NCBI GenBank assembly: GCA_937870635.1
Contig: CALMZP010000053.1
Span: 1-64,000 of the forward strand
Origin: an uncultured Acidobacteriota bacterium
Lineage (GTDB): Bacteria > Acidobacteriota > Thermoanaerobaculia > Gp7-AA8
Direction: 5' to 3'
DNA length: 64,000 nucleotides
Numbering within the stretch: the stretch's first letter is position 1; each line of letters starts with the position of its first letter. Position numbers and translations under genes: made by a program. The notes beneath the pieces were generated by a model, which saw only the letters and a program-made list of their open reading frames with translations, was not told the origin of the DNA and ran no database searches. This document shows positions 7,663 to 63,237 of this stretch, piece after piece.

Positions 7663-7756
7663 AATGTTGAATGTTGAATGTTGAATGTTGAATGTTCAAT
7701 GGCTCGAGAGAACCACTTCATTCAACACTCAACATTCAACACTCAACATTCACCAT
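7663..7756. repeat. Heptamer inverted repeat, ATGTTGA family (rplL-rpoB gap)
   Basis: The left arm is about five tandem ATGTTGA units (7663-7700). The right arm is about five reverse-complement TCAACAT/TCAACAC units (7718-7752). A unique spacer of roughly 17 bp (GGCTCGAGAGAACCAC...) separates them. Transcribed in either direction this would fold into a long AU-rich hairpin. The same 7-mer recurs at 10056 and 36621. Confidence 0.9.
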
Positions 7757-7773
7757 TTCAAACAAAAGCCAAT

Positions 7774-7803
7774 TTCCGGACGGCGCTTGCGCGCCGCCCG
7801 GAA
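7774..7803 (-). terminator. Hairpin after rplL, probable attenuator/terminator
   Basis: The stem TTCCGG-CGGCGC / GCGCCG-CCGGAA has one mismatch and a 4-nt loop, and begins 19 nt past the rplL stop. On the minus strand it is followed by a T-rich stretch (GGCTTTTGTTTG). In E. coli a partial terminator separates rplL from rpoB to lower polymerase subunit expression; the same job is plausible here. Confidence 0.55.
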
Positions 7804-7821
7804 CACGACAAAAACTCGAGG

Positions 7822-8211
7822 TTACTTGACGGTGACTTTGGCGCCGGCCTCTTCGAAGACCTTCTTGATCTTGGCGACTTCGTCCTTGGAGACACCCTCT
7901 TTGATGACCTGCGGGGCGCCCTCGACGAGATCCTTCGCTTCCTTCAGGCCGAGGGCCGTCACTTCGCGGACCGCCTTGATCACGTTGATCTTCTTGTCGC
8001 CCACCTCGGAGAGAGTGACCGTGAACTCGGTCTGCTCTTCGGCCGGGGCAGCGGCAGCACCGGCAGCGGCGCCACCGGCAACCGCCATCGGCATCGCGGC
8101 CGCGGCGGCGGAAACGCCGAAGCGCTCTTCGAGCGCCTTGACGAGGTTCGAAAGGTCGAGGACCGACATCGTTTCGATCTGCTTCACGAAATCTTCAGTT
8201 GAAATAGCCAT
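7822..8211 (-). CDS. rplL: 50S ribosomal protein L7/L12
   Basis: A 129-residue stalk protein that recruits translation factors. It has an N-terminal dimerisation helix region ([17 protein letters not shown]), an Ala/Gly/Pro hinge (about residues 34-57) and the conserved C-terminal domain with [20 protein letters not shown] and the DLVEGAP motif. It lies 28 bp after rplJ and upstream of an attenuator-like hairpin before rpoB. Usual family length. Confidence 0.98.
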
Positions 8212-61356: not shown

Positions 61357-62333
61357 TACTGGAGTACCTCGGCCGTCCCGCGGCCGCCGTAAACGATCAC
61401 GTAGCGGAAAGCGCGCTCCTCCGGATCGATGACCATTTTCTCCCCGGGCGCGAACACGAACGGCATCGTCGGCGGCTCGAGCGCGGTGAGTTCCTCAGGC
61501 GCGTTGGCAGTGCGCGCATAGATGACGGAGGGCATACCCGTGCCGCGCGTGAATGTGAGACGGACACGTCCGCGCGTCGGACCGAAGTCGAACGCCGTTG
61601 CCCGCACTCCCTTTCGCCCGCCGACGGCGACGCCGTCGCGGATCTCGATCGTGGGGATGTCAGTACGGTAGTGCTGAACGTCGCGCGGCGTGAGAAGTGC
61701 CGCCGCCTCCACCGCGGGATCGCCGCGGCGAACCGTAAGGAAGTTCCATCGGCCGATCGGCGGTTCGCCGATGATCATGGGCGGCACCGGCGCTCCCACA
61801 TCGTGCAGCGGGAGGCGGTCGTCCCAGCGCTGGAAGATCTTCCACTGGGGCCCGGTCACGATGAAGTTCTCGATCTCCGGTTTGATGTCGACGGCGGCGA
61901 TCAATCCGCCAACGCCGTTCGTGCTGCGGACGGCGACGACCATCCGGTTGCCCCGGTCACGAGCAAGCTCGGATACGTCGAAGACGTCGAGCTGCCGGTC
62001 GTCGCTGGAGCGGCGGCCACCGATCCGCTTTCCATTGAAATAGAGCGTGTACTCCGGGTCGCCGAGAATCTTGATGCGCGTCCAGTTCCGGCCCGGAGGC
62101 AGGTCGAAGTCGCGCGCCGCGAAGAACGCCACGGGCATGTTGCGGTTGATCCGGTGAGGGGCCCATATCCAGCTCGCTTCGCCGGTGATGTCGTAGAACT
62201 TCGTTGCGTAAAGGCGCCACAGGTAGCTGAACGACGCCGTGAGGAGCACGACGAAAATGACCGCCGCCGTCAGCCGGCGCATCAGTTCGCGATCGGCTGG
62301 CGCGATAGGGGGGTTAGAATCCGCCGCGTCCAT
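61356..62333 (-). CDS. Membrane-anchored beta-sandwich protein (probable partner of the GT39-like gene)
   Basis: 325 residues. TM helix about 18-38, then an extracytoplasmic beta-rich domain containing GEASWIWAPHRINRNMPVAFFAARDFDLPPGRNWTRIKI (abbreviated) and FNGKRIGG, resembling galactose-binding-like jelly-roll folds. The start at 62333 is chosen provisionally: it overlaps the divergent kdsB start by 2 nt; a later ATG at 62283 would leave a 49-bp gap. Immediately upstream of the GT39-like gene, overlapping by 1 nt. Function unknown. Confidence 0.6.
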   Translation of the reverse strand: MDAADSNPPIAPADRELMRRLTAAVIFVVLLTASFSYLWRLYATKFYDITGEASWIWAPHRINRNMPVAFFAARDFDLPPGRNWTRIKILGDPEYTLYFNGKRIGGRRSSDDRQLDVFDVSELARDRGNRMVVAVRSTNGVGGLIAAVDIKPEIENFIVTGPQWKIFQRWDDRLPLHDVGAPVPPMIIGEPPIGRWNFLTVRRGDPAVEAAALLTPRDVQHYRTDIPTIEIRDGVAVGGRKGVRATAFDFGPTRGRVRLTFTRGTGMPSVIYARTANAPEELTALEPPTMPFVFAPGEKMVIDPEERAFRYVIVYGGRGTAEVLQ

Positions 62334-63054
62334 GAAGGCGGTCATTCTAATTCCTGCACGGTGGGCCTCGACGCGATTCCCGGGGAAGCCGCTGACGCCC
62401 ATCGCCGGGGTGTCGCTGGTTCGGCGCGTTTTCGATCGGGCGGTGACCGTGCGCGGCGCCACCGCCGTCTACGTCGCCACGGACGACGACCGCATCGCAT
62501 CCCACGTCCGGGCGTTCGGCGGCAACGTCCTGCAGCCGGAAGGCGACTTCCAGACCGGCACCGATCGCATTGCCGCCGCCGTGCGCCTGCTCCCTCCCGG
62601 GTTCGACCAGGTGATCAACGTCCAGGGCGACGAGCCGCTGATCGACACCGAGAGCGTCGACCGGGTCATCGACGCGCTCCAGCACGAGCCGATCGACATC
62701 GCCACCCTCGCCTCGCCCATCGAGACGGATGAGGAGTACACGAGCCAGGACGTCGTGAAGGTTGTCACCGTTCTGTCCGGTGACGCTCTCTACTTCTCAC
62801 GCGCGCCGATTCCGTTCGGTTCGCGGGAAGCGGCGCGGCGGCACATCGGTTTGTATGGATATCAGACGAGAGCTCTTCTGCGTTTCGCTTCGCTGCCGCG
62901 GACTCCGCTCGAGCGGACAGAATCGCTCGAACAGTTGCGAGCATTGCAGAACGGCTTTAAAATTCGAGTACTGCACACGGACAAGCCCCACCTCGGAGTC
63001 GACCGCCCCGAGGATGTCCCGCGCGTCGAGAGTGAGCTTGCGAAATTGCGCTGA
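62332..63054 (+). CDS. kdsB: 3-deoxy-manno-octulosonate cytidylyltransferase (CMP-KDO synthetase)
   Basis: 240 residues. VILIPARWASTRFPGKPL is the nucleotide-binding signature; VINVQGDEPLID and the LYFSRAPIPF segment are family-conserved. It activates KDO for LPS core, so this bacterium makes LPS. ATG at 62332. Confidence 0.96.
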   Translation: MKAVILIPARWASTRFPGKPLTPIAGVSLVRRVFDRAVTVRGATAVYVATDDDRIASHVRAFGGNVLQPEGDFQTGTDRIAAAVRLLPPGFDQVINVQGDEPLIDTESVDRVIDALQHEPIDIATLASPIETDEEYTSQDVVKVVTVLSGDALYFSRAPIPFGSREAARRHIGLYGYQTRALLRFASLPRTPLERTESLEQLRALQNGFKIRVLHTDKPHLGVDRPEDVPRVESELAKLR

Positions 63055-63141
63055 GATCCATGGAGGACATTCGTGAGCGTGACGCTCACAATGCACCTCT
63101 CTCAGCACTCTCAGCAGCAGACCCCTCCCTCCCGCTCCCCC

Positions 63142-63237
63142 AGAATGCAGAATGCAAAATGCAGAATGCAAAATGAAGAGAGAGGAGTGCTTTCTGCATT
63201 TTCAATTTTGCATTCTGCATTTTGCATTCTGCATTTC
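63142..63237. repeat. Heptamer inverted repeat, AATGCAR family
   Basis: Left arm of alternating AATGCAG/AATGCAA units (63142-63175), right arm of TTCTGCATTTTGCATTCTGC-type units (63191-63237), spacer of about 15 bp (GAAGAGAGAGGAGTG). Each arm carries mirrored variants. Lies between kdsB and pyrG; its far arm ends 26 bp before the pyrG start. Confidence 0.92.

Follow-up and report, generated by a model that had tools for sequence, protein, structure and literature searches.

Dispersed hairpin repeats with mirrored heptanucleotide arms and differing units in an uncultured Acidobacteriota genome

Why should the spaces between the genes of one bacterium hold so many palindromes whose arms are tandem runs of a 7-bp unit, when the unit differs from one palindrome to the next? 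The question is raised by a stretch of 64,000 nucleotides (hereafter the window) from contig CALMZP010000053.1 of an uncultured Acidobacteriota bacterium (assembly GCA_937870635.1). A first-pass annotation of the letters alone had claimed around twenty such elements in at least eight units, and the tally was borne out, as the window contains 15 stem-loops with tandem 7-mer arms and four unpaired arrays, i.e., 19 sites, and all eight units are present. The 15 paired elements were called by a stem-loop caller blind to period, and the period-7 arrays were recovered by Tandem Repeats Finder and by an independent scan where the annotation had placed them; a 15-bp two-copy match at 9565 was left out of the site count. 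The sites are given below with two elements of like layout (window positions; no strand is assigned to any feature).

7663..7757, paired element, unit GAATGTT; stem 39, loop 17; between rpoB and the next gene, presumably rplL; orthologous gap compared
10048..10154, paired element, unit AATGTTR; stem 45, loop 17; between genes 9611-10036 and 10152-10700, which we take to be rplK and nusG; orthologous gap compared
11028..11101, paired element, unit TGGCTCC; stem 31, loop 12; adjoins tRNA-Trp (11112-11187)
11420..11502, paired element, unit GAGAATT; stem 29, loop 25; adjoins tRNA-Thr (11511-11585)
11748..11771, unpaired array, unit TTCTCAA; flanked by tRNA genes
18103..18179, paired element, unit GGTGCTT; stem 27, loop 23; between genes 17410-18084 and 18185-18706; orthologous gap compared
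21409..21432, unpaired array, weak, unit GAGAATT; seen in one scan only
24721..24754, unpaired array, unit GAAGGAT; overlaps the end of the gene called at 24092-24736
26290..26369, like layout with mixed 8-10 bp units (ACGCAGAGG); stem 36, loop 8; a related design, not period 7
29458..29519, paired element, unit ATTTTGG (AAAATCC family); 3 bp separate it from the stop codon of the gene at 29523-30059
34626..34693, paired element, unit ATTTTGG; both arms hold the variant unit ATTTGCG
36621..36707, paired element, unit AATGTTG; flanking genes divergent
38794..38878, like layout with mixed 8-10 bp units (ACGCAGAGG); not counted among the 15 period-7 elements
41990..42063, paired element, unit ATTTTGG; both arms hold the variant ATTTTAG
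44990..45083, paired element, unit ATTTTGG; occupies the whole gap of two convergent genes, the TGA stop codon of one (44992-44994) lying inside its outer end
46865..46955, paired element, unit AAGGATG; stem 36, loop 19
49215..49298, paired element, unit ATTTTGG; within a 103-bp gap that spans 14-57 bp in the eight element-free relatives where it could be measured
56538..56619, paired element, unit TTCGACC; stem continues beyond the arrays (GGATTCGACC..GGTCGAATCC)
59919..59999, paired element, unit ATTTTGG; flanking genes convergent
60785..60815, unpaired array, unit TCGACCT; within the gene called at 60004-61356
63141..63236, paired element; AATGCAG and AATGCAA alternate in both arms

Some arms of the window elements are degenerate, and the number of units is often unequal between arms.

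At an array score of at least 12, the window held 20 arrays of period 7 and zero of period 4, 5, 6 or 8, and an order-1 Markov control of the window gave 0 arrays. In 400 kb outside the window there were 71 arrays of period 7, three of period 6 and none of period 8, as expected from the claim that period 7 would be the commoner genome-wide. A reverse-complement arm was found within 90 bp for 22 of 25 arrays in the window (6/500 control placements) and, in keeping with the claim that opposing arms are general, for 63 of 85 arrays outside it (18/1700 control placements). We examined 735,181 of the 4,523,169 bases of the genome, and among the 147 strong stem-loops in these 735 kb the period was 7 or 14 bp in 79 and 12 in one, with none in the remaining 67. 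The proposal of a shared 7-bp period needs amendment in that period 7 is dominant, not exclusive: paired elements of period 8 and 9 are present in sister genomes, and two window elements have mixed units of 8-10 bp.

The examined part of the genome contains 20 unit strings, which fall into 12 groups, and we found no published report of such a number within one genome. Most units, including the main unit ATTTTGG, have no GGG, and GGG units occur in the relatives G004 and G013. The commonest unit, AAAATCC, gave 315 overlapping matches to its paired pattern in this genome and none in 79 relatives, 17 of these from the same family, yet the paired unit is present in eight phylum-level groups (grouped by record title), a pattern for which we found no published account. 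Independent slippage at each locus would not settle on one 7-mer at so many loci. Left arrays of the AAAATCC family begin in one of two adjacent phases, GATTTTG or ATTTTGG, in 30 of 35 cases (a count made without any assumption on phase), and the length of the arms peaks at four units (21/37 left arms and 20/37 right arms in 37 AAAATCC elements). The variant unit ATTTTAG is biased outward in this genome, being found in 0 of 86 units adjacent to the loop and 19 of 196 farther out (p 0.001); the bias is absent in cyanobacteria, where the count next to the loop is 9 of 44.

The two arms of an element vary together. Where an arm departs from its unit, the facing base has the same change in 0.58 of cases, compared to 0.08 if the arms are slid by whole units, a covariation that depends on the variant units, which are the minority, on extended stems and on choosing the register for best pairing. 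For the AAAATCC family overall, the similarity of arms was scarcely higher within elements (0.974) than between them (0.966). Pairing also continues past the arrays: of 31 cases in this genome in which both arms leave the unit at the same place, eight pair for at least two further bases (1.9 expected), and three of 21 such cases in other phyla pair for at least five (0.02 expected). Mirror symmetry is inexact, however, because the arm lengths differ in 22 of the 37 AAAATCC elements. None of the 37 has a target-site duplication of at least 3 bp directly at the array ends, the feature by which a MITE would be recognized, and we judged 8-mers common to the loops of different elements to be not above chance. 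Movement of whole elements predicts shared loops in recent copies, and their absence among the same 37 elements counts against it. The elements do have a polarity, in that the 5′ arm is the G-rich strand in 119 of 133 elements and 38 of 41 units, and in 26/30 and 21/25 of further sets; we found no published statement of this rule. The only one of the window's 15 paired elements with more C than G in its 5′ arm is that at 56538..56619.

The elements are located between protein or tRNA genes, and 28 of 46 facing ends (61%) overlap a stop codon or are within 5 bp of one, compared to 37% for random placement in the same gaps, while for start codons the same measure gave 17% both as observed and at random. 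Comparison of orthologous gaps upheld the suggestion that one layout is common to many unit families and is kept while the unit changes: within genera, the same gap in a sister species is often occupied by a palindrome with a different unit or even a different period, an exchange of which we found no published report. By script, 10 of the 22 comparisons again showed a stem-loop in the sister gap, and with manual reading 12 of the 22, a tally over all comparisons that becomes 10 or 12 of 18 if the occupied sister is chosen where there were two. Relative to gene pairs (64/322) these values give p 0.006 and 0.0003, and relative to gaps of at least 30 bp (64/208) p 0.11 and 0.02, so that by script alone the excess of shared seats is not significant against gaps of that size; some gaps may be more permissive than others. 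At two loci G004 differs from its sisters by the same change of unit, GTGGGGG versus GTCGGGG. Turnover is not universal, as at one locus of genus g5 (G004 and G013; unit GAAGGAT) both arms and loop are homologous, with a spacer alignment above all 500 shuffles, so this element was inherited vertically.

These observations favor a mechanism in which arm sequence is copied from locus to locus, the arms are kept symmetrical and the G-rich strand is distinguished. If replication and repair alone were responsible for this, palindromes could evolve in concert much faster than by point mutation. Our leading explanation, which is tentative and which we rate somewhat short of an even chance, is that the elements are miniature hairpin repeats dispersed through the genome, with an arm sequence that spreads and becomes uniform and with arms copied from each other. 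A family would correspond to one arm sequence, a tandem run of some three to five 7-bp units, mirrored round a short loop that is not shared. This arm DNA would spread to new gaps within the genome and be homogenised there, and the copying of one arm from its partner, by fold-back synthesis or hairpin conversion, would keep the two arms of an element mirror-symmetrical. Elements would persist where they are harmless, chiefly in the short gap from a stop codon to the next gene, so that their placement would reflect tolerance rather than targeting, and reoccupation of such seats by other palindromes would turn over the unit while the layout stays.

It is possible, though rather doubtful, that the origin is purely local, with slippage producing a 7-bp array where a hairpin already exists and with template switching copying it to the other arm, without movement between loci, an idea close to that of the annotation. 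The in-register covariation of the arms, the stems that extend past the arrays, the unrelated loops and the lack of target duplication all agree with this, the hairpins that sister species have at shared seats would supply a starting place, and among long repeats those of seven nucleotides are the most frequent in the majority of surveyed genomes, for which slippage at a 7-nt polymerase contact has been put forward (PMC4679880). What a local origin leaves unexplained is the sharing of one unit, in almost identical phase, by many loci here and by none in the 79 relatives, the presence of the AAAATCC unit in distant phyla, and the repeated unit difference between G004 and its sisters; moreover, free slippage predicts a fall-off in number from the shortest arms instead of a peak at four units, although short arms are harder to detect. 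Template switching at a hairpin, which the annotation had suggested, fits the covariation and the pairing past the arrays, but alone it cannot explain one unit at many loci. We consider it unlikely that the hairpins themselves are selected, i.e., that a stem is needed at the seat for 3′ end stability, processing or termination of the upstream mRNA while its sequence is free, so that the unit drifts and gives way to others and the stem stays. Such selection would suit the proximity to stop codons and the change of occupant with the palindrome kept, and there is a parallel in the Nostoc trnL P6b motifs, which swap within one functional stem (PMC4476775, as excerpted). However, on the sense strand of tandem genes G-U mismatches are about equal to A-C mismatches (28 versus 23, p 0.58), so RNA pairing leaves no trace, and RNA-level selection via G-U tolerance was rejected. 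T fills at least five of the nine bases after the stem at only 11 of 178 ends (6%, compared to 3% of random intergenic 9-mers), and as most ends have no U-tract we also rejected a reading as intrinsic terminators. In addition, a good number of the orthologous gaps have no element, some being as short as 5 bp, and seven of the 43 placed elements are in divergent gaps. An Rfam scan of the window at the gathering threshold returned tRNAs only, with no group I intron of tRNA-Leu at the elements.

The dedicated enzyme that the annotation had offered as an alternative was not found with the two profiles searched, Y1_Tnp and RVT_1, and no mobile-element machinery was identified for the elements. Transposition in the manner of REPINs, by which a Y1 (RAYT-like) transposase would move non-autonomous palindromes as single-stranded hairpins, is improbable. 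The inverted arms, a poorly conserved spacer (cf. the available portion of PMC3116915), the lack of target duplication and the many copies in one lineage would all suit it, as would the finding that 17 of the 18 family genomes have Y1_Tnp matches, this genome having three Y1 transposase genes. Yet neither of the two loci read of these three has a heptamer element beside it, and among 30 Y1 loci read in the family a period-7 element adjoins just one (L234 in G003), with another tandem pair, of period 8 by eye, alongside L235 in G009; on this rarity we rejected a Y1 linkage. Furthermore, G015 has elements and no Y1 match, and the arm sequence varies freely between genera. Least probable of all, and in our estimation very improbable, is an extension of ends akin to that of telomeres, in which both 3′ ends at a break would receive the same short G-rich repeat from a templated polymerase and then be joined, the loop being junction filler. 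The polarity is that of two telomeres meeting, with the 3′ end of the G-rich strand pointing at the loop from either side; unit lengths of 7 to 9, the preferred start phase, short unrelated loops and the lack of target duplication fit as well, and a bacterial reverse transcriptase, DRT10, is reported in the accessible text of PMC12632851 to make tandem-repeat DNA. On the other hand, RVT_1 gave 0 matches in this 98.7% complete genome and none in 11 of the other 17 family genomes (reverse transcriptases too distant for the profile would escape), and a reverse transcriptase as generator was rejected on that basis. Independent extension also does not predict in-register variants common to both arms. 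Ku is present in 16 of the 18 family genomes and absent in G003 and G012; as G003 carries elements, and G028 has Ku but no period-7 stem-loops in 160 kb, Ku is neither needed nor enough, and end joining by Ku was rejected as the cause of loop change.

A broader proposal, which we regard as speculative and unlikely, is that one undescribed class of hairpins occurs in at least eight phylum-level groups, spread or maintained by a machinery that would read structure and polarity and not sequence, so that units would be exchangeable. The proposed common grammar would be a unit of 7 (7-9), arms of about four units, a 5′ arm that carries the G-rich strand and a free loop, and it is prescribed by no system known to us.

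Cyanobacterial STRRs are described as direct arrays, and to the annotation the paired arms looked different from known heptamer repeats. That view is contradicted by our scan, in which 7-bp units, including AATCCAA, occur in paired form in Nostoc and other cyanobacteria, as well as by repeats of Xanthomonas and the P6b stem of Nostoc trnL in the published extracts cited below. In the portions of the literature available, heptamer repeats are reported piecemeal (cyanobacteria, Xanthomonas, Geobacter, Beggiatoa) with no agreed explanation that we could find; the sister-gap comparisons, the abundance of one unit and the polarity rule make this old curiosity testable. A close likeness is to the GGGAATC heptamers that, according to an extract of Rehm et al. 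2015 (PMC4692102), form 70 and 75 inverted pairs in two Xanthomonas genomes, the GGGGAYT repeats of Nostoc PCC7120 forming few pairs only. The Xanthomonas repeats are likewise intergenic inverted pairs of 7-bp tandem units, mostly four, and they lie nearer the upstream gene (mean 28 nt), as the present elements lie near the stop codon; we take their description as convergent to mean that the G-rich strand is in the 5′ arm. Convergent 7-bp runs and an intergenic position near a stop are found in both, whereas G-tracts of three or more, able to form a quadruplex, are lacking in the main unit and most others here: the extract describes one G-quadruplex-type (GGG) unit per genome, in contrast to the 20 unit strings (12 groups) here, mostly without GGG, and to the exchange of units at orthologous gaps between relatives.

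The P6b stem of Nostoc trnL also consists of paired heptamers (PMC3488679 and PMC4476775, both in part), and two motif classes fill this one functional stem and replace each other, class II having repeatedly become class I (PMC4476775). The main unit of this genome, TTGGATT, conforms to the class I motif TDNGATT, in similarly mirrored 7-nt repeats, and both TTGGATT and TTAGATT occur in paired stems; class II, NNTGAGT, fits GCTGAGT, a unit of the relative G002 (loci L113 and L304). As described, however, P6b is one group I intron locus with two motif classes, compared to many intergenic loci and dozens of units here. The Calothrix heptanucleotide STRRs, as cited in the extract of PMC4692102, share the 7-bp tandem arrays. 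REPINs, in the sections available of PMC3116915, are inverted pairs with two conserved ends and a less conserved spacer, form hairpins and are dispersed between genes, but their ends are fixed, non-tandem and tied to a RAYT gene, whereas the arms here are tandem and changeable, with no linked transposase. Finally, the octa- and heptanucleotide elements of Geobacter metallireducens have four tandem units, and the global-regulator classes are mostly in pairs; the excerpted account (PMC2700814) interprets them as regulator binding sites or RNA elements, and we found no paired-arm class defined in it. Their octanucleotide GTTGCTYN resembles an 8-bp paired family of the relative G008.

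The window contains 15 stem-loops whose arms are built from one repeated 7-bp unit, the right arm being the reverse complement of the left, plus four unpaired arrays, and all eight 7-bp units named in the first-pass annotation were recovered among these elements by array and stem-loop scans. The elements are found between the genes of ordinary clusters: next to rpoB (whose neighbors we take, from known gene order, to be ribosomal genes), among tRNA genes and between convergent genes. Of arrays scoring at least 12, the window contains 20 with period 7 and lacks periods 4, 5, 6, and 8. 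In 400 kb elsewhere in the same genome (G000, a 4.52 Mb draft, 98.7% complete), period 7 accounts for 71 arrays and period 6 for three, with period 8 absent, and Markov controls of equal size have no such arrays. Within the window, 22 of 25 arrays have a reverse-complement arm no more than 90 bp away vs. 6 of 500 random placements; outside it, the figures are 63 of 85 arrays vs. 18 of 1700. A stem-loop scan blind to period (score ≥18; 735,181 bases of G000) returned 147 stem-loops, 79 with period 7 or 14, one with period 12 and 67 aperiodic, the last including other palindromic repeat families; a 244 kb Markov control yielded none. At a score of 15, 89 stem-loops of G000 are periodic, and their arms use 20 unit strings, or 12 groups once units one mismatch apart are merged.

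The occupants of orthologous gaps change between species. The gap beside rpoB, which holds a GAATGTT pair in the window, was readable in 13 relatives (14 loci), and palindromes with other units (AGAATTA, AGTGCTG, GAACGCA, and others) stand at the same place in the related genomes G011, G002, and G008 by the stem-loop script and in G009 and G003 by eye. No such palindrome was seen at that place in the remaining eight, among them G017 with its plain short hairpin; G005 and G006 carry degenerate pairs (by eye) at another position of the gap. At 10037-10151, the AATGTTR unit of G000 recurs in three of 13 relatives, AATTAAG and GCAGAAY each occur in one, a degraded pair occurs in three (two by eye) and five have none. 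At 18085-18184, pairs built of other units occupy the gap in six of the 16 relatives, while in five it is empty at 5-34 bp and in five it contains other DNA. Within genera, the flanks of the compared gaps are 70-90% identical.

We also compared 18 gaps where one species has a periodic pair and both flanks were located in a sister. In this tally, which was read from the output and favors sharing, as the occupied sister was taken where two existed, the sister's unit is the same in one gap and related in three (one of these being period 8 vs. 7, both arms having about one inserted base per unit); the sister carries an unrelated periodic pair in six (four by script, two by eye), an aperiodic palindrome in two and nothing in six. 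A stem-loop is present in 10 (script) or 12 (reading) of all 22 sister comparisons, giving p = 0.006 and 0.0003, respectively, against the 64 of 322 neighboring gene pairs with a stem-loop, and p = 0.11 and 0.02 when the reference is gaps of ≥30 bp (64 of 208). Sharing of seats between sisters above chance is likely but not certain, and the excess could be explained by some gaps being more permissive.

The paired elements have a polarity, the 5′ arm carrying the G-rich strand. Among 133 elements from 14 genomes, G exceeds C in the 5′ arm of 119, C exceeds G in 12 and the counts are equal in two; counted by genome and unit, a G excess is found for 51 of 56 families (p = 1e-10), and by unit for 38 of 41. 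The same was found in 25 periodic pairs with other units at loci of other phyla (21 vs. 4, p = 9e-4) and in 30 further elements outside the first 133, some of whose sequences had been viewed earlier (26 vs. 4, p = 6e-5), and the other stem-loops of G000 lean the same way more weakly (57 vs. 23). Being palindromes, the elements show the G-rich 5′ arm on either strand. Head-to-head fusion of two telomeres would give the same arrangement, but an RVT_1 profile search found no reverse transcriptase in G000, which speaks against a telomere-type origin. Where one arm departs from its unit, the facing base has the same change in 0.58 of cases (0.08 with arms slid by whole units), an upper estimate since the best-scoring register was used and the stems include complementary bases beyond the arrays. 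Complementarity beyond the array ends is above chance. Whole arms of the AAAATCC family are hardly more alike within elements (0.974) than between them (0.966).

AAAATCC, the commonest unit of G000, is 29% G+C in a genome of 63% G+C. Its paired pattern has 315 overlapping forward matches in G000 and is absent from 79 relatives, of which 17 belong to the same family; in named genomes it has at least 62 stretches, the matches listed including, by record title, Cyanobacteria, Chloroflexi, Planctomycetota, Acidobacteria, Hydrogenedentes, Nitrospira, Calditrichaeota, and Deltaproteobacteria (Geobacter, Desulfohalobiaceae). The loops of 37 AAAATCC elements in G000 are 1 to 32 bases long and share no 8-mers beyond what we judge to be chance level, and none of the 37 has a target duplication. 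In 30 of 35 left arrays, the start falls in one or the other of two neighboring phases.

By a simple in-house gene model, 47 of 53 paired elements (464 kb of G000) are intergenic. The 43 with both neighbors lie in 26 tandem, 10 convergent and 7 divergent gaps, following the background of all gaps of ≥60 bp (118, 41, and 49). Of 46 stop-facing ends, 28 (61%) overlap the stop codon or lie no more than 5 bp from it, vs. 37% for random placement in the same gap; for start-facing ends (n = 40) both values are 17%. As element-free gaps of relatives are often just 5 to 34 bp, this closeness to stop codons may merely reflect what is tolerated. Mismatch counts (28 G-U vs. 23 A-C) give no indication that RNA pairing is under selection, and a U-tract is absent at most element ends; a spacer, a 3′ hairpin or no role at all are each possible.

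Earlier reports describe inverted heptamer pairs of one unit in Xanthomonas (PMC4692102), whose convergent GGGAATC pairs seem, by description, to fit the G-rich 5′ arm rule, stems of heptamers with motif exchange at one locus, the Nostoc trnL intron (PMC4476775, PMC3488679), and heptamers as the commonest long repeats (PMC4679880). Since one-unit pairs and heptamer stems are thus already published, the G000 elements are a marked extension of known repeats and not a separate kind. Searching open-access literature in PMC, where few subscription papers appear, yielded no recognizable treatment of many paired-arm units per genome, of exchange of paired units at orthologous gaps, or of the polarity of paired heptamer arms.

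Period-7 stem-loops occur in 13 of 15 sampled genomes of the family, with none in 24.6 kb of G001 or 20 kb of G005, and once in 60 kb of G018 from the same order. None were found in 160 kb of G028 (L273-L280) or 20 kb each of G022 (L283) and G026 (L284), all of other families, and from this small sample of 200 kb the trait may be bound, within its class, to the order of G000. Two loci, L117 (G005:C246) and L119 (G013:C179), are near-identical, although their gap otherwise varies from genus to genus. The locus occurs twice in G005, L126 being the other copy; the G005 bin is probably contaminated.

A stretch upstream of rpoB, GGCCGCTCCCCCC (window about 7620-7655), recurs in each of the 14 rows read of that gap (L112-L126) and resembles a leader RNA or an attenuator; an Rfam scan of the window at the gathering threshold returned tRNAs only and no family match for it. 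Several further palindromes were noted:

Window 26290-26369 and 38794-38878; L057:17062; L158:4154; L164:8025: ACGCAGAGG palindromes
G008, L071-L080 (e.g., G008:C44:394066 and 202171): period-8 paired family, GGTTGCGC and GGTYGCTC
L053:2024-2189; L163:12721-12902; L156:4381-4544; L157:17940-18135; L066:13486-13697: nested elements
L056:15382-15490; L052:12201-12305; L057:9229-9332; L063:3549-3665; L060:14100-14201: palindromes with the common outer arm GTCATGGTGTCAGGTCTGGAAA

The ACGCAGAGG palindromes have mixed 8-10 bp units, similar ends (ACCGCAGAGACGCAGAGG) and the two-arm design of the heptamer pairs. The period-8 pairs of G008, a sister genome, resemble octanucleotide GTTGCTYN elements described for Geobacter metallireducens (PMC2700814). 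In nested elements, heptamer arms enclose a CACGTCATCCTGAGG-type palindromic repeat, or a heptamer pair sits inside the loop of another palindrome. The inner arms of the GTCATGGTGTCAGGTCTGGAAA palindromes vary from copy to copy while staying nearly perfectly self-complementary, which hints at self-templated copying.
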